Origin: a virus
Strand: one strand, 5' to 3'
IMG/VR virus record: IMGVR_UViG_3300037963_002176
Location: 1-37,088 of that record
DNA length: 37,088 nt
Shown here: positions 30,822 through 37,088 of the stretch, piece after piece
Layout: each line of letters begins with the position of its first letter
Numbering within the stretch: the first letter of the stretch is position 1
Notes under the pieces: model-generated
What the model saw: only the letters and a program-made list of their open reading frames with translations
What the model was told of the DNA's origin: nothing
The model's database searches: none
Translations under genes and position numbers: made by a program

Positions 30822-33095
30822 ATGTCTCCACTAAATTCTTATTTTCTCCAAGGATCTCCTGGTGAGCAGAGACTCATTCAGGATTTAGTCAATGAACAGT
30901 TAAAAATGTATGGTGAGGACGTACTGTACTTACCAAGAAAGATCATTGGAGAAAATACTGTTATACGAGAAAACACTGCTGCAAAGTTTGACGATAGTTT
31001 CAGAATCGAAGCGTATCTGATGAACTATGAGGGGTTCCAGGGTGCAAGCGCAGAACTCCTCACAAAGTTTGGTGTTAGAAATACGGATGAATTAACTCTT
31101 GTCATATCAAAGGAAAGATATGATGATTTTGTTCAACCAATTATTGATCAGTTCCCAGTTGGAGAAAGAAAGAAGGCTAAAAGACCTAATGAAGGAGACC
31201 TGATCTTTTTCCCTCTAGAGGGAGCACTTTTTGAAATTAAATTTGTGGAAGGTAAAAAACCTTTCTATCAACTCAGAAATCTATATGTCTACGAACTCTT
31301 ATGTGAGAGATTTGAATTTGAAGATGAGATTATTGACGTTTCACAAGTAGATAATGAAGGATCTACCGTCAATGAGACTGTATCTCAGTTTGGTAATGTT
31401 TTAACACTAAATCTTGTGGGTGCATCTGCAACTACCGCAGCTGCTTCTGTGTCTGGTATTGTAACTGATAATCAATATAAGTCTGCACAGTATATTGACT
31501 TGATCCATGATGGTGCGTATGTAACTACACCTACAGTAAAGATATCAAAACCTTTCTTTGGTATTGGTGTAACTGCAACAGCTTCTGCAAATCTAAACGT
31601 TGATGGAAGTATTTCGTCATTCAACATATTAAATGGGGGAACACAATATGTTAATGGAGCTACTGTAGCCATTTCTACAACTCCCGATATACCAGATGAA
31701 TATGTTAGAGATCATCAGATTAATGATGTAGAACCTGGTTATGATAGTTATTATTCTTTAAAAATTGATGATAGAGAGTGGCAATTAAATACAACTCGTG
31801 GAGTAACAGGACAAAATTCTGTTGGAACTGTTAAATTTTACTATTGGCACTCAGGATCCACCCCAACAAGTGGATATCTTTATAAATCAAACTTTGTAAA
31901 TGTTAAGTGGACTGCAGATAGTACTGTTAGTGTTGAAATAAGAAGAACAGATAATGCACAGTTTGACACAGCCATCTTAAATGAACCAATATCACTGACT
32001 ACTGGATGGAATAAGATTGAGTTTAGTTGGGATGGTTCAATATTCTCTTTCTGGAACATCCCTCTTGGAGGTTCTAGAGTTAGACAGTTTTATGACAATC
32101 TTTCTGGAACTAATTATGAAAATCAAAAGTTTGTGGATGACAACCCAGTATCTTTAGGATCTACAACTGGAGGAATTCAATACTTTGATCACTTTGAAAT
32201 ATATAGTACTGCTTCGGTATATAATGGTGCAGGCGCTGCATCAACAAGTAGAATTTACTTGGAAAGTTTTGAAAAAGGCGAACAAGCTTTAGCAACTGTA
32301 AATGTAAGTGCCGCAGGCATAGTGACGAGTATAACCGTAGATTCTTCTAACATAGGTTATGCATATACAATTGCACCATCAGTAACAATTTCAACGCCAG
32401 AGAATGGCATTCAAGCTACTGCGGTAGCTATTATGACAAGTAGAACCGTCAATCAAAAACGAGGTATCGATAGAGTTCTTCTAACAAATCCAGGTTATGG
32501 TTATACAGTTTCTCCAACTATTGAATTTATTAGTTCAAATGGATCTGGGGGTATTGCTACAGTTGTAATTAATTCTGGAGTTCTCCCAGTTGTTGCAATT
32601 AGTAGTGGTGGTGTAGGTTATACTACCGATCCACAAGTATTCATTGAACCAATATTTGTTGCAGAATCTGTTGGGGTCAGTTCTGAAATTAATAATGCGA
32701 AGGCAGAAGTAGTTCGCAATACAAACGGAGAAGTATCTCAGATTCTTTACTCCAACGCTGGTGCAGGTTACACATTCACCCCAGGTATTACATTTACTCT
32801 TCCAACATCAGATACTTACGGTTATTACGAATATAACGAAATAGTCACTGGTCAACGTTCTGGTGCAACTGGTTATGTGAGAGAGTGGGACGCTGATGAT
32901 CGCATTCTTAAATTAGCTACTGTAAATGGAACATTCCAAAGGGGAGAATCTGTCGTGGGAGCCGCAGGAAGTTATAAAGTATCTACTGTTGATACAAATG
33001 AATTCTTAGATGCATTTGCAGATAATATAGATATTGAATCAGAAGCTGACGAAATCATTGACTTTAGTCAAACTAATCCCTTTGGAGAATTCTAA
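30822..33095 (+). CDS. gp14: Neck protein gp14, enlarged by inserted beta domains (757 aa)
   Basis: Residues 1–175 (GSPGEQRLIQDLVNEQLKMY, EDVLYLPRKII, FRIEAYLMNYEGFQG, GDLIFFPLEGALFEIKFVE, FYQLRNLYVYELLCERFEF) and the end (DEIIDFSQTNPFGEF) are recognisable as gp14, the neck partner of gp13. T4 gp14 has 256 residues. About 500 extra residues lie between the two conserved parts. They include GGxxY repeats near 270, a probable concanavalin/laminin-G-like jelly-roll at about 293–465 (DDREWQLNTTRG, KWTADSTVSVEIRR, GWNKIEFSWDGSIFSFW, FDHFEIYS), and at least four GGxGY repeats at about 505–650 (NPGYGYTVSPTIEF, GGVGYTTDPQVFI, AGAGYTFTPGITF). The insert suggests surface-exposed decoration of the neck. 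The stop codon overlaps the gp15 start (TAATG). Confidence 0.9.
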   Translation: MSPLNSYFLQGSPGEQRLIQDLVNEQLKMYGEDVLYLPRKIIGENTVIRENTAAKFDDSFRIEAYLMNYEGFQGASAELLTKFGVRNTDELTLVISKERYDDFVQPIIDQFPVGERKKAKRPNEGDLIFFPLEGALFEIKFVEGKKPFYQLRNLYVYELLCERFEFEDEIIDVSQVDNEGSTVNETVSQFGNVLTLNLVGASATTAAASVSGIVTDNQYKSAQYIDLIHDGAYVTTPTVKISKPFFGIGVTATASANLNVDGSISSFNILNGGTQYVNGATVAISTTPDIPDEYVRDHQINDVEPGYDSYYSLKIDDREWQLNTTRGVTGQNSVGTVKFYYWHSGSTPTSGYLYKSNFVNVKWTADSTVSVEIRRTDNAQFDTAILNEPISLTTGWNKIEFSWDGSIFSFWNIPLGGSRVRQFYDNLSGTNYENQKFVDDNPVSLGSTTGGIQYFDHFEIYSTASVYNGAGAASTSRIYLESFEKGEQALATVNVSAAGIVTSITVDSSNIGYAYTIAPSVTISTPENGIQATAVAIMTSRTVNQKRGIDRVLLTNPGYGYTVSPTIEFISSNGSGGIATVVINSGVLPVVAISSGGVGYTTDPQVFIEPIFVAESVGVSSEINNAKAEVVRNTNGEVSQILYSNAGAGYTFTPGITFTLPTSDTYGYYEYNEIVTGQRSGATGYVREWDADDRILKLATVNGTFQRGESVVGAAGSYKVSTVDTNEFLDAFADNIDIESEADEIIDFSQTNPFGEF

Positions 33096-34150
33096 TGTTT
33101 GGAACTTATTTTTATCACGAAATTTTAAGAAAGACTATCATAGCTTTCGGTACATTATTTAATAACATTGAAATTAAACACAAAGATACATCTGGAAATG
33201 GATTTAGTCAATTAAAGGTCCCTATTGCGTATGGACCTATGCAAAAGTTCTTAGCGAGAATAGAACAATCTCCAAATCTTAGAAAAGAAGTTGCAATAAC
33301 TTTGCCCAGAATGGCATTTGAGATGGTGGGTATTTCATATGATCCAACTAGAAAATCTTCAACCATGCAAACTTTTAAGGTTGTAGATCAAAATAATAAC
33401 AAGATGACTAAGGCTTTTATGCCTGTTCCATATAATGTAAATATTAGATTGTCGATTATGACAAAACTGAATGAAGATGCACTACAGATAGTAGAACAAA
33501 TATTACCATATTTTCAACCCCACTTTAATCTAACAGTCAATCTGGTTGAACAAATAGGTGAGACTAGAGATATTCCAATGGTCTTGAATAGTATTCAGAT
33601 GGATGATGATTATGAGGGAGATTTTACTACGAGAAGATCTCTGGTATATACATTGGACTTTACTGCAAAAACATATCTATTTGGTCCAGTGGATACTGGT
33701 AACGATAGTATAATCAAAAAAGTTCAAGTCGATTATTATACTAATACTGAAAGAAAAAATGCATCCAGAGAACTTCGTTATGTTGCAACTCCCAAAGCTC
33801 TTAAAGATTACAATTCTGACGGTGCAACTCAACTTTCTCAAGATATTGCAGCAAACGTCACCGAGTTTAGTGTTGAATTTGGAACTCAGTTGATTTCTAA
33901 GACTTACATACAGATTGGTGAAGAAGTAATGTTTATCAGAGAAATTGCTGGTAATGTTATCAAGGTAAATAGAGGTGAGAACGGTACTATTGCTACCACT
34001 CATGAAGCATTGGATTATGTTAATGCAATCAATGCAGCAGATGATGAACTGATTGATCTTGACGATGATTTTGGATTCAACGAATCTACATTCAATTTTA
34101 ATGATGGAAAGATTTACAGTACAACTAAACAAACTGACGTGGACGCATGA
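33095..34150 (+). CDS. gp15: Tail completion / sheath stabiliser gp15 with C-terminal extension
   Basis: 351 residues. MFGTYFYHEILRKTI...LFNNIEIK, KVPIAYGP, VAITLPRMAFEMVGISYDP, ALQIVEQILPYFQPHFNLTV and RRSLVYTLDFTAKTYLFGPV match T4 gp15 (MFGYFYNSSFRR, VPITYAS, ETILPRINLHLVDFSYN, FQIVEQILPYFQPHFNTTM). gp15 caps the finished tail tube and sheath and joins it to the gp13/gp14 neck. T4 gp15 is 272 residues. The core ends near residue 215 here. The rest includes a module at 271–303 (YIQIGEEVMFI...KVNRGENGTIATTH) that also occurs in the DUF4815 giant, and an acidic tail. The start overlaps the gp14 stop codon by one base, and the end overlaps gp16 by four bases. Confidence 0.94.
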   Translation: MFGTYFYHEILRKTIIAFGTLFNNIEIKHKDTSGNGFSQLKVPIAYGPMQKFLARIEQSPNLRKEVAITLPRMAFEMVGISYDPTRKSSTMQTFKVVDQNNNKMTKAFMPVPYNVNIRLSIMTKLNEDALQIVEQILPYFQPHFNLTVNLVEQIGETRDIPMVLNSIQMDDDYEGDFTTRRSLVYTLDFTAKTYLFGPVDTGNDSIIKKVQVDYYTNTERKNASRELRYVATPKALKDYNSDGATQLSQDIAANVTEFSVEFGTQLISKTYIQIGEEVMFIREIAGNVIKVNRGENGTIATTHEALDYVNAINAADDELIDLDDDFGFNESTFNFNDGKIYSTTKQTDVDA

Positions 34151-34575
34151 AGTACGACGAAATAGATGATGCTTTAGATATTACACCCACAGAGGTTAAG
34201 TCTGAAAAAATTGTCAAAAAAGAACCAGAGGTAACTGAAGTCGTTACTTCTACTCAAGAACAACTCAAAAAAGATTATGAATATACTCGGGGAAATCTCT
34301 ATTCTTTGATTGAAAAGGGTCAAGAAGCGGTTGATGGAATTTTAGAACTTGCACAAGAATCAGATTCTCCTAGAGCATTTGAAGTTGCAGGTCAACTTAT
34401 TAAGCATGTCGGTGATGTTGCCGACAAGTTAGTTGATCTTCAGAAAAAAGTAAAAGACATTGAGAAAGACGATGGCAAATCATCTAAAGCAGCAAACGTT
34501 ACAAACAATGCGGTTTTCTTTGGGTCTACAGCGGATCTCCAGAAATTTCTCAAAAATAATGGAGATTCTAAATAG
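34147..34575 (+). CDS. gp16: Terminase small subunit gp16
   Basis: 142 residues. After a charged N-terminal ~45 residues comes DYEYTRGNLYSLIEKGQEAVDGILELAQESDSPRAFEVAGQLIKHVGDVADKLVDLQKK, the helical core typical of T4-like gp16, which carries the coiled-coil oligomerisation region. T4 gp16 (164 residues) forms rings that recognise DNA and regulate gp17 during packaging. A C-terminal segment (VTNNAVFFGSTADLQKFLK) follows a conserved marine pattern. The ATG overlaps the gp15 stop codon (ATGA). gp16 and gp17 are not adjacent: two genes totalling about 2.1 kb lie between them. Confidence 0.92.
   Translation: MKYDEIDDALDITPTEVKSEKIVKKEPEVTEVVTSTQEQLKKDYEYTRGNLYSLIEKGQEAVDGILELAQESDSPRAFEVAGQLIKHVGDVADKLVDLQKKVKDIEKDDGKSSKAANVTNNAVFFGSTADLQKFLKNNGDSK
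34567..34574 (+). promoter_or_regulatory. Possible degenerate late promoter (TCTAAATA) overlapping the gp16 stop codon
   Basis: TCTAAATA runs into the gp16 TAG stop codon, 23 bases before the next ATG. This is the same geometry as GATAAATAG at 13668. The core CTAAATA also precedes the giant fibre. It deviates from NATAAATA, so confidence is low. Confidence 0.35.
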
Positions 34576-34597: not shown

Positions 34598-36568
34598 ATG
34601 ACCAAAGCTAAATCGTGTCCCCCTGGGAAGTACTGGTGCTATACTGATAAAAAATGTAAAAAAATCCCCATGGGATTTTATGTGGGTCGTGGCGGTTATT
34701 TGTCAAGAGAAGATGAGAATGGTGAAGATGGTAAAAAGAACGGTAAAAAAAATGGTAATGGAAATGGCGGTAATGGAAACGGTGGTTCCAATGGCGGCGG
34801 CAACGGCGGCGGAGGAAATGGTGGCGGGGTGAGCGAAAATACTATATTAGAAAAACGTGATGGTAAGTCTGCGAAGGATAAGGGTTATTCCCTTCGTGAT
34901 TGGTTCAAAGGTGGTGGTTGGAAACAAACAGGTGGTAAGTATGACGGTAAACCCTGTGCGAGACAACCAGGTCAAAAAACCAAACCATTCTGTCGTGATG
35001 CAGATGATCGCGCTTCAATGAGTAAAGACGAAAGAAATAGGAGAGCTGCTAAAAAACGCAGAGAAGATCCAAATCCCGATAGAAAAGGAAAGGCAAAAAT
35101 GGTAACCGATTCATACGATTTTTCAAACTGGAGAGACGAGTTCAAAGCACTCGAATTTGAAACAGTTGACATTATTGGAACAGAACCATTGAAACCAACT
35201 GAAGGTCTCGGAAGTAAAATGCTTGGTGAGAAGTGTTGGAAGGGATATGAGAAGAAAGGTATGAAGACCATGTTTGGTAAGAGATATCCAAACTGTGTCA
35301 AGAAAGAAGAAACAGAAGTCACAAAAGAGGGTGTCCTTGATGCCGCTCTGGAGACTGATAAGAAAATGGGTGAACTTCATAAGAAAGTTGACAATGATGT
35401 CAAACGAATGAAGAAGGGTAAGAAGTTCAAAGAAGAATTTGAAACATGTCCAGTATGTGGTAATGATCCATGTCAATGTTTAGAAGGCAACTTGGAAGAG
35501 ATGGCTTCAGAAAAAGATATTAATAAAAAACTTCAGAAAAAGGTCAACTCTAAAGATCTAAATCCTGCAGAATACATTAAAAATACGAGACTAATGCCTG
35601 GTTCTGGTATTATTAAAAAATTACCAGAAGGAAATGCTGGACCAAGCACTCCTGTAAAACAATATGATGGTAAGTTTATGCCTAACCCAGGTGCTGGTAG
35701 ACCTGGTAAGGTTAGATTAAAACCAGGAACTCCTGCAGCATTAAGACTTGCTCATAAAGAGTATTCTGATTGGAAAACTGAACTTTTTGAAGGTGACGGT
35801 GATCATGAGTATGAAATGGCACGTCGTCAACTAGCAACGATTAAAAATGCAGTTTCTCGTCTTGAGAAAAAGATGGGTGAAACTGGAGAGGGTGAACTCA
35901 AAGCATGGGTTCAATCAAAACTCACTAGATCTGCGGATGACATCGATACCGTTGCAGATTACATGACCAATGAGCAAGTAGGTCCAGACGCACGGGGAGC
36001 AGCGAATCTTAAGAAATGGACTAATATGTCCGCAGATGCCAAAGCAGGAACCCTGGCAAACAGGGCGGCAAATCAAGCAAAAGGCGTCTCAAGAGCAATT
36101 GATAATGCAAGACGAAATGCAAAAAATGTAAAAATAACGCCTGGTAGTGTAAACATTCGTGCAGATATTCCTGAAGAACTTGTCCAGGAAGGAGAAAAAG
36201 ACGCTTGTTACCATAAGGTCAAGTCTCGTTATTCTGTATGGCCCTCTGCATATGCATCTGGAGCACTAGTCAAGTGTCGTAAAGTTGGCGCGAAGAACTG
36301 GGGTAACAAGACTAAAAAAGAGGAAGTCCAGTATCTGAATACTGAAGACTATCAAAGGATACAGGAATATGGTAACGTTTACACTATAATAGTGTTATGG
36401 AGAGGTAAGTCCCATCGCTTGCAACTTTTCTTCCAGGGTACGGCAAGACCTTCCCGCGATGAAGTTAAGAACGAAGTAGAAAAGATTTACCCAGGTGGAA
36501 TGGTGAGTTACTACTTCCCCAGTGCCACCGATCCAGGTAAACCAATTATTGTTTCTACAAGGAGTTAA
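34598..36568 (+). CDS. Modular Cys-motif protein between the terminase genes (656 aa)
   Basis: I do not recognise an enzymatic function. Modules in order: a Cys-containing N-terminal motif (CPPGKYWCYTDKKCKKIPMG, VGRGGYL); an Asn/Gly linker (residues about 46–78); SLRDWFKGGGWKQTGGKYDG with KPCAR and KPFCRDADD plus a basic tail (about 97–165); GEKCWKGYEKKGMKTMFGKR with PNCVKKEE (about 209–235); the zinc-ribbon-like CPVCGNDPCQC near 284; Pro/Gly segments; a helical middle (about 405–540); ACYHKVKSRYSVWPSAY...VKCRK near 558; and a C-terminal domain (YTIIVLWRGKSHRLQLFF, RPSRDEVKNEVEKIYPGG). Similar short motifs occur scattered in marine T4-like structural proteins. The highly basic composition suggests nucleic-acid or prohead contact. 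Location between gp16 and gp17 hints at a packaging link, but this is inference. Confidence 0.72.
   Translation: MTKAKSCPPGKYWCYTDKKCKKIPMGFYVGRGGYLSREDENGEDGKKNGKKNGNGNGGNGNGGSNGGGNGGGGNGGGVSENTILEKRDGKSAKDKGYSLRDWFKGGGWKQTGGKYDGKPCARQPGQKTKPFCRDADDRASMSKDERNRRAAKKRREDPNPDRKGKAKMVTDSYDFSNWRDEFKALEFETVDIIGTEPLKPTEGLGSKMLGEKCWKGYEKKGMKTMFGKRYPNCVKKEETEVTKEGVLDAALETDKKMGELHKKVDNDVKRMKKGKKFKEEFETCPVCGNDPCQCLEGNLEEMASEKDINKKLQKKVNSKDLNPAEYIKNTRLMPGSGIIKKLPEGNAGPSTPVKQYDGKFMPNPGAGRPGKVRLKPGTPAALRLAHKEYSDWKTELFEGDGDHEYEMARRQLATIKNAVSRLEKKMGETGEGELKAWVQSKLTRSADDIDTVADYMTNEQVGPDARGAANLKKWTNMSADAKAGTLANRAANQAKGVSRAIDNARRNAKNVKITPGSVNIRADIPEELVQEGEKDACYHKVKSRYSVWPSAYASGALVKCRKVGAKNWGNKTKKEEVQYLNTEDYQRIQEYGNVYTIIVLWRGKSHRLQLFFQGTARPSRDEVKNEVEKIYPGGMVSYYFPSATDPGKPIIVSTRS
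34732..34830 (+). repeat. Asn/Gly-rich low-complexity linker
   Basis: AAYGGT/GGCGG-rich repeats encode an uninterrupted Asn/Gly(/Lys) tract (GNGNGGNGNGGSNGGGNGGG and onward). It separates the N-terminal Cys motif from the rest of the 656-residue protein and is likely a flexible linker. Such a tract is prone to length variation. Confidence 0.85.
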
Positions 36569-36742: not shown

Positions 36743-37088
36743 ATGAGTGACGTATATCTTGGTAATCCTAATCTAAAAAAAGCGAATACTCCGATTGAAT
36801 TTACGGAGGAACAGATTAATGAATGGATCAGGTGTAAGAATGATCCTGTTTATTTTGCGAACAATTATATCAAGATTGTTTCACTAGACGAAGGTTTAAC
36901 ACAATTTCATCCATATCATTTCCAAGAGAAACTGATTAATCGATTTCATGAGAATCGATTTAATATCTGTAAGATGCCACGACAGACTGGTAAGTCTACT
37001 ACCGTGGTGTCTTATCTTTTGCACTATGCAGTTTTCAACGATAGTGTCAACATAGGTATCCTTGCAAACAAAGCGGCAACCGCAAGGG
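36743..37088 (+). CDS. gp17: Terminase large subunit gp17 (5' part, cut by window end)
   Basis: Only the first ~115 codons are in the window. MSDVYLGNPNLKKANTPIEF is followed by NDPVYFANNYIKIVSLDEGL, FHPYHFQEKLINRFHENRFN and the ATPase motif CKMPRQTGKSTTVVSYLLHY, where PRQTGKST is the Walker-A-like P-loop (T4 gp17: SRQLGKT), then VNIGILANKAATAR. gp17 is the packaging motor ATPase and nuclease. The N-terminus is shorter than in T4, where the P-loop is near residue 161; here it is near residue 80. The reading frame is open at the window edge. There is no obvious Shine-Dalgarno sequence, so translation probably depends on the preceding 55-aa gene. Confidence 0.97.
   Translation, partial: MSDVYLGNPNLKKANTPIEFTEEQINEWIRCKNDPVYFANNYIKIVSLDEGLTQFHPYHFQEKLINRFHENRFNICKMPRQTGKSTTVVSYLLHYAVFNDSVNIGILANKAATAR

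Follow-up and report, generated by a model that had tools for sequence, protein, structure and literature searches.

Cyanophages are among the commonest marine viruses, and a large share of their virion is unassigned. In phage T4, the internal protein IPIII carries the sequence MKTYQEFIAE. Within the ten-residue N-terminal propeptide of IPIII, positions 4 and 7 act in targeting and positions 8 and 10 in processing, and the T4 protease gp21 cuts after L/I-X-E (PMC9026906). In the phiKZ-like giant phages, a protease resembling gp21 processes proteins of the inner body at S/A-X-E (PMC9026906). The g15–g18 interval of cyanophages has been described as hyperplastic and as a carrier of cargo genes (PMC2984593; PMC3037559). 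A gene located in this interval, between the homologues of gp16 and gp17, encodes a chain of small conserved modules separated by linkers. With moderate confidence, we interpret its product as a head-targeted polyprotein, which would be cut by gp21 into small modules that accompany the DNA in packaging and probably also in ejection.

The window, i.e., the whole stretch of DNA that was analysed (37,088 nucleotides; IMG/VR virus record IMGVR_UViG_3300037963_002176), is part of a 46.6 kb viral contig, the rest of which runs from gp17 to the start of gp23 and encodes the head maturation protease gp21, the scaffold protein gp22, and the major capsid protein (MCP). On this contig, the prohead protease gp21 is encoded at 44019–44669 (phrog_207, head maturation protease, E 5e-80), approximately 7.5 kb downstream of the gene under study. 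A run of N just beyond the window end (contig position ~37089) breaks gp17, and the window stops at this assembly gap. The features of the locus are compiled in Table 1.

Table 1. Features of the gp16–gp17 region; positions are those of the window, residues those of the mosaic protein.
Feature	Position	Strand	Evidence or remark
gp16 homologue, terminase small subunit	34147..34575	+	phrog_445, E 3e-54
Mosaic gene, 656 aa, T4-GC 119 family	34598..36568	+	ATG start; phrog_727, E 1.6e-52
Module A, residues 5-36, three invariant Cys, small beta fold	34610..34705	+	53 copies; pLDDT 83-95 over residues 11-40
Asn/Gly-rich linker, disordered	34718..34849	+	pLDDT < 50
Predicted prohead-protease site ILE|K, directly before module B	34847..34858	+	hydrophobic-x-Glu at residue 85
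Module B, residues 86-170, two invariant Cys, C-terminal half of DUF5872	34853..35107	+	85 copies
Capsid-targeting-like motif DFSNWRDEFKALEFET	35117..35164	+	motif class enriched in family linkers
Module C, residues 209-237, two invariant Cys, predicted site MLGE|KCWKGY at residue 211	35222..35308	+	93 copies
Module D, residues 282-296, CPVCGNDPCQC, four conserved Cys	35441..35485	+	11 copies, CLEG always next
Capsid-targeting-like motif and predicted protease site YSDWKTELFE|GD before module E	35762..35797	+	motif analysis
Module E, residues 402-458, helical hairpin	35801..35971	+	39 copies; helices 403-428 and 436-459, pLDDT 77-95
Predicted protease site ELVQE|G before module F	36176..36193	+	junction motif analysis
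Module F, residues 531-580, two invariant Cys, N-terminal half of DUF5872	36188..36337	+	89 copies
Module G, residues 590-652, alpha-beta-beta-alpha-beta domain, predicted start site RIQE|YGN at residue 590	36365..36553	+	66 copies; core pLDDT ~93
NblA-like ORF, 55 aa	36571..36738	+	87% identity to S-SCSM2R protein annotated NblA
gp17 homologue, terminase large subunit, 5' part, cut by window end	36743..37088	+	phrog_5989, E 3e-36

The reading frame of the mosaic gene is genuine, being far above chance given its relatives and invariant cysteines. Its product is highly basic, as an earlier note on this DNA had claimed (pI 9.46, net charge +36 at pH 7; 126 Lys and Arg versus 90 Asp and Glu), and all motifs quoted in that note were recovered in it; its 13 cysteines are found at residues 7, 14, 20, 120, 132, 213, 233, 284, 287, 292, 294, 537, and 560. 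The placement between gp16 and gp17 is correct, but the gene is not the lone occupant of the gap, which holds two genes, the NblA-like ORF having been overlooked. The label of this ORF (NblA, phycobilisome degradation) derives solely from identity to the annotated NblA; no Pfam NblA match was obtained.

Five copies of ATAAATA, the core of the cyanophage late promoter, were counted in the window, all of them on the + strand (sites including 4300, 13669, 14707, and 29962), a total which is below the chance expectation of 10.9, so that the placement alone is notable; four of the five copies are located just upstream of a gene. None directly precedes the mosaic gene, which is, thus, probably read from the 29962 site together with gp13–gp17. 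Also in the window, the gp14-type neck protein (30822–33095; 757 aa) is prolonged at its C-terminus by a long extension with matches to families of virion structural proteins and tail fibres (phrog_701, phrog_19630).

Relatives of the mosaic protein are encoded in 371 phage records, nearly all of them of cyanophages (tblastn), with matches in S-SM2, P-SSM2, syn9, and others at E-values down to 1e-47. They are labelled either as hypothetical or as structural protein, T4-GC 119, cyanophage only; hence, the family is already on record, and it is its function that is undescribed. The PHROG matches (727, 38880, 3477, 32745, 10346, 30733, and 1742) are, every one, of unknown function, and searches of Pfam, NCBIfam, and PDB sequences with the whole protein gave nothing usable; the PDB sequence matches of the whole protein were discarded as matches to Gly-rich linkers.

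The protein is, as had been proposed, a genuine mosaic, in which the motifs belong to recurrent conserved modules, A–G, arranged as beads on a string. In modules A, B, C, and F, each cysteine shows 100% conservation (53–93 copies), and modules E and G are devoid of Cys. In the AlphaFold model, A, E, and G are confidently folded, and the linkers have pLDDT values below 50; no confident fold was obtained for B and F, which counts against the reading as a cut polyprotein. A fold search with module G gave no PDB match below E 0.001, and the viral library returned cyanophage relatives only. The sequence CPVCGNDPCQC of module D does not conform to the zinc knuckle that had been suggested, its spacing being CX2CX4CXC and not that of the CCHC type, CX2CX4HX4C; the four cysteines are kept in 11 of 11 copies, and metal binding is putative.

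Among the 85 relatives that contain three or more types of module, 32 distinct module strings were found. The shuffling is partial: A comes first (E precedes A twice), B always stands before F, and G closes the string, whereas the positions of C, D, and E vary. Free permutation of the modules was, therefore, rejected in part, given that A, B–F, and G hold their relative order; complete cutting need not maintain such an order, and this is a second point against a cut polyprotein. Also rejected was the idea that a genome uses its modules repeatedly, in more than one protein: in the eight complete cyanophage genomes, A, B, C, E, and F were each found no more than once, and a second G, if present, lies only beside the first. 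In relatives, foreign domains are inserted among the modules, namely DUF192 in S-SM2 SSM2_109 (L002) and an NT5C nucleotidase in L094. F-like and B-like modules are united in one protein of L108 (4782–6005), a contig titled WOR-3 bacterial chromosome (2.85 Mb), where they may stem from a prophage, a host gene, or an assembly error.

Single genes, too, encode modules F and B. In Pelagibacter phage HTVC027P, in the roseophages CRP-7 and CRP-902, and in phage C72C1, these small genes lie side by side, and in the Prochlorococcus podovirus P-SCSP2 they are close together, with two ORFs between; in IMG/VR, F stands alone on 61 contigs, and on 57 of these a separate ORF encodes B, usually no more than ~100 bases away. 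The Pfam family DUF5872 (PF19197) is composed of F followed by B: standalone F matches positions 1–49 (46.9 bits for a standalone F relative) and standalone B positions 48–111, or about 45–112 across its standalone relatives. With the whole window protein no match to DUF5872 was obtained, and its F fragment scored 16.4 bits, below the cut-off of 27.5. DUF5872 has been reported in Chrysochromulina parva virus, an alga virus (PMC12085832). A third small gene, of the DUF6321 type, is often located beside F and B, and in some cyanophages it constitutes the last module of the mosaic.

Wherever both terminase genes are visible, the mosaic gene sits between them, with few exceptions (80 IMG/VR loci and annotated phages); the locus is, thus, kept in most relatives, and close homologues do not lie mostly away from the terminase genes. 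In P-SSM2, the gene precedes gp16, and in cluster C phages a part of the family (B-C-F) is found near the ribonucleotide reductase genes. The adjoining terminase genes in most relatives, the net charge, and the F and B genes of roseophage CRP-7, which are located just upstream of the terminase large subunit, would fit a basic accessory that helps gp16 and gp17 to package the DNA or to handle its ends, a role raised in the earlier note. Against it, the two exceptions in gene position weigh together with the location of F and B near capsid genes in other phages and with the fact that terminase is normally no component of the virion, whereas the relatives are; moreover, the g15–g18 interval is known as a hyperplastic cargo region (PMC2984593; PMC3037559). 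No tie to packaging or DNA-end handling was found, and we consider such a role very improbable.

Of the alternatives listed in that note, an injected or prohead protein is best supported. The presence of relatives in the virion is taken from the literature and from GenBank annotation. The virion proteome of S-CREM2, which splits the family into ORF160 (B-C-F) and ORF137 (G and a DUF6321-like end), includes ORF160 with 7 unique peptides, ORF137 with 4.1% sequence coverage, and also ORF136 (PMC10665884). The latter is encoded between gp16 and gp17 and starts with MQTFSMFFSE|D. In S-SCSM1, the relative (A-B-F-C-G) carries the annotation “virion protein”, and the corresponding paper reports 45 proteins detected by mass spectrometry (PMC9602691). 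This peptide evidence for the relatives is thin, and a location in the head interior is not fixed by it, which weighs against the polyprotein reading. A peptide resembling the N-terminal arm of MCP, GFTGAAAPEGPVAGYDP, is carried by the mosaic protein in cluster C phages (L121, S-CREM2 ORF160 and ORF145; L005, S-B68).

The junctions between modules are marked by a motif of the protease type. In the family linkers, [LI]xE[GA] occurs 70 times versus 22.7 ± 4.6 times in shuffles (10 times inside modules), an enrichment that is inflated by kinship among the sequences, the linkers being conserved and E-rich; the irrelevant control motif [LI]xK[GA] is likewise above shuffles (z 4.4), which speaks against cutting. 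E[GA] is found at 146 of 269 distinct junctions versus 129 of 1162 control 17-mers, and a hydrophobic P3 residue is present in 113 of these 146 E[GA] junctions versus 55 of 182 controls (Fisher p 7e-18); about half of the junctions are without E[GA], a further point to be held against a cut polyprotein. The contexts vary by module, e.g., LVDE|GKKDACY (F), VKE|AVRIPAKTGN (G), IEE|AKKCWKGY (C), and VDE|ANKSGDSSL or LSE|ARDGKSAK (B). In the window protein, which has 12 hydrophobic-x-Glu sites in its 656 residues, modules B, C, E, F, and G start at most three residues from such a site (ILE|K, LGE|K, LFE|G, VQE|G, and IQE|Y, respectively). The MCP of the same contig carries LGE|A at the expected place.

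Motifs of the targeting type are enriched as well. The form [YF][ST][DNEQ][WF] is present 62 times in the family linkers versus 1.0 ± 1.0 in shuffles, and T4-type N-terminal targeting sequences were counted 20 times versus 0.09 expected, almost all in the region under study. MKTFSQFLLE|A heads B-F-G proteins and MKSFQQFLSE|S heads standalone G, and the N-terminal MK-x-aromatic-xx-F sequence is present in the relatives L046, L056, and L057; it is absent from the window protein, which starts with MTKAKSCPPGKYWC and has internal motifs only, at residues 175 and 389, a further point against the polyprotein reading. A near-perfect T4-type start, MKNFSSFLTE|A, is found in NMNAT (cytidylyltransferase), a virion protein of S-CREM2 (L121 24608–25468; L005 904–1791), and such a capsid-targeting start would explain the packaging of this enzyme.

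If cutting by gp21 is the point of the junction motifs, propeptides are to be expected on the single genes of T4-like phages and not in phages without such a protease. So far, this prediction holds: in non-T4-like marine phages, F and B have no propeptides, and in T4-like ones the single genes are equipped with them. Standalone F with a direct start (MSKKDACYH...) was found on 44 contigs, none with a T4-like neighbour, and standalone F with a motif-containing propeptide on 22 contigs, nine of them with a T4-like neighbour, where matches to the DUF6321-like module of S-CREM2 ORF137 and to ORF176 are left out of the counts and the flanks comprise only 4–5 kb, so that an absent neighbour is weak evidence. 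Among genes with C as the first module, the motif is present in 17 of 18, e.g., MKILEILE|GTRCWKGY.

On the polyprotein reading, the capsid-targeting-like motifs of the linkers would bring the mosaic protein into the prohead core, and gp21 would then cut after hydrophobic-x-Glu at the module junctions. The small basic, mostly Cys-bearing modules freed in this way would stay with the packaged DNA and would probably be ejected with it, like the T4 internal proteins. Alternatively, the protein might remain uncut as an accessory of the head or capsid surface, with its modules binding the capsid lattice and the junction motifs being mere recombination-prone linkers. The presence of relatives in the virion and the conservation of the linkers are in line with this, as is the S-CREM2 and S-B68 peptide that resembles the MCP N-terminal arm (GATGFTGAAAPEGPVAGYDPLMG vs GADGFTGAAAPGGPNAGFDPVMI). 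However, this peptide is confined to 2 of 91 relatives, and the junction motif recurs ahead of unrelated modules and on the propeptides of single genes; we regard an uncut accessory as unlikely.

As a guess, the modules freed from a polyprotein would make contact with DNA or serve host take-over. They may enter the cell together with the DNA as small effectors or as proteins that counter host defence, like T4 IPI, a reading that adds a function to the polyprotein mechanism without opposing it. T4 internal proteins are diverse defence proteins with the targeting sequence as their sole shared feature (PMC3012670); similarly, the module set of the cyanophage proteins differs between phages, and some relatives include enzyme domains, e.g., DUF192 and NT5C. 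Yet B and F recur in almost every relative as well as in widely differing phages, with DUF5872 extending to an alga virus, and this wide spread suggests a housekeeping role in the virion over host-specific counter-defence. We regard the delivery of take-over proteins as less likely than not.

Regarding the origin of the putative polyprotein, T4-like cyanophages may have fused small virion proteins, which in other marine phages are encoded by separate genes and which form a Pfam family reported in an alga virus, into a shuffled chain in which each module has its own targeting and protease signal, the capsid protease thereby yielding many internal head proteins; we judge this scenario to be evenly balanced. 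If true, a large uncharacterised family, encoded at a locus long recognised as hyperplastic, would gain a mechanism together with a prediction open to testing, namely that head-protein cargo is exchanged as protease-cut modules. The small DUF5872 halves would, by suggestion, constitute a virion component common to very different viruses, and the N-terminal rule MK-x-[FY]-xx-F-[LIM]-x-E would allow cyanophage internal head proteins to be listed by sequence inspection only.

Compared with known systems, the closest is the T4-GC 119 family itself (S-SM2 SSM2_109, P-SSM2 PSSM2_123, syn9 gp114), with which the window protein shares sequence homology, the gp15/gp16–gp17 locus, modules, and structural annotation; its order A-B-C-D-E-F-G is, however, unlike that of every annotated relative fetched, and it is without the DUF6321 module (no Pfam match) that the S-SM2 and P-SSM2 relatives have. 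To DUF5872, it is related through modules F and B, which correspond to the two halves of that family but stand in reverse order (B before F), ~360 residues apart. The T4 proteins IPI–IPIII and gp22/gp67 are comparable with regard to the same-form junction and N-terminal motifs of the relatives, the basic character, and the presence of relatives in the virion; they are, however, small proteins with one N-terminal propeptide, in contrast to a seven-module chain with internal targeting-like motifs. As the window protein has no N-terminal targeting sequence, it is not classed as a T4 internal protein and is likened to these in its working only. With the phiKZ-like inner body, likened here by description, it would have in common that many DNA-associated head proteins are processed by a prohead protease, these being encoded by separate genes there and by one shuffled polyprotein here. 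No earlier description of a modular protease-cut design was found in the open-access literature searched; if confirmed, this design would be a novel variation on the way in which T4 employs its internal proteins.
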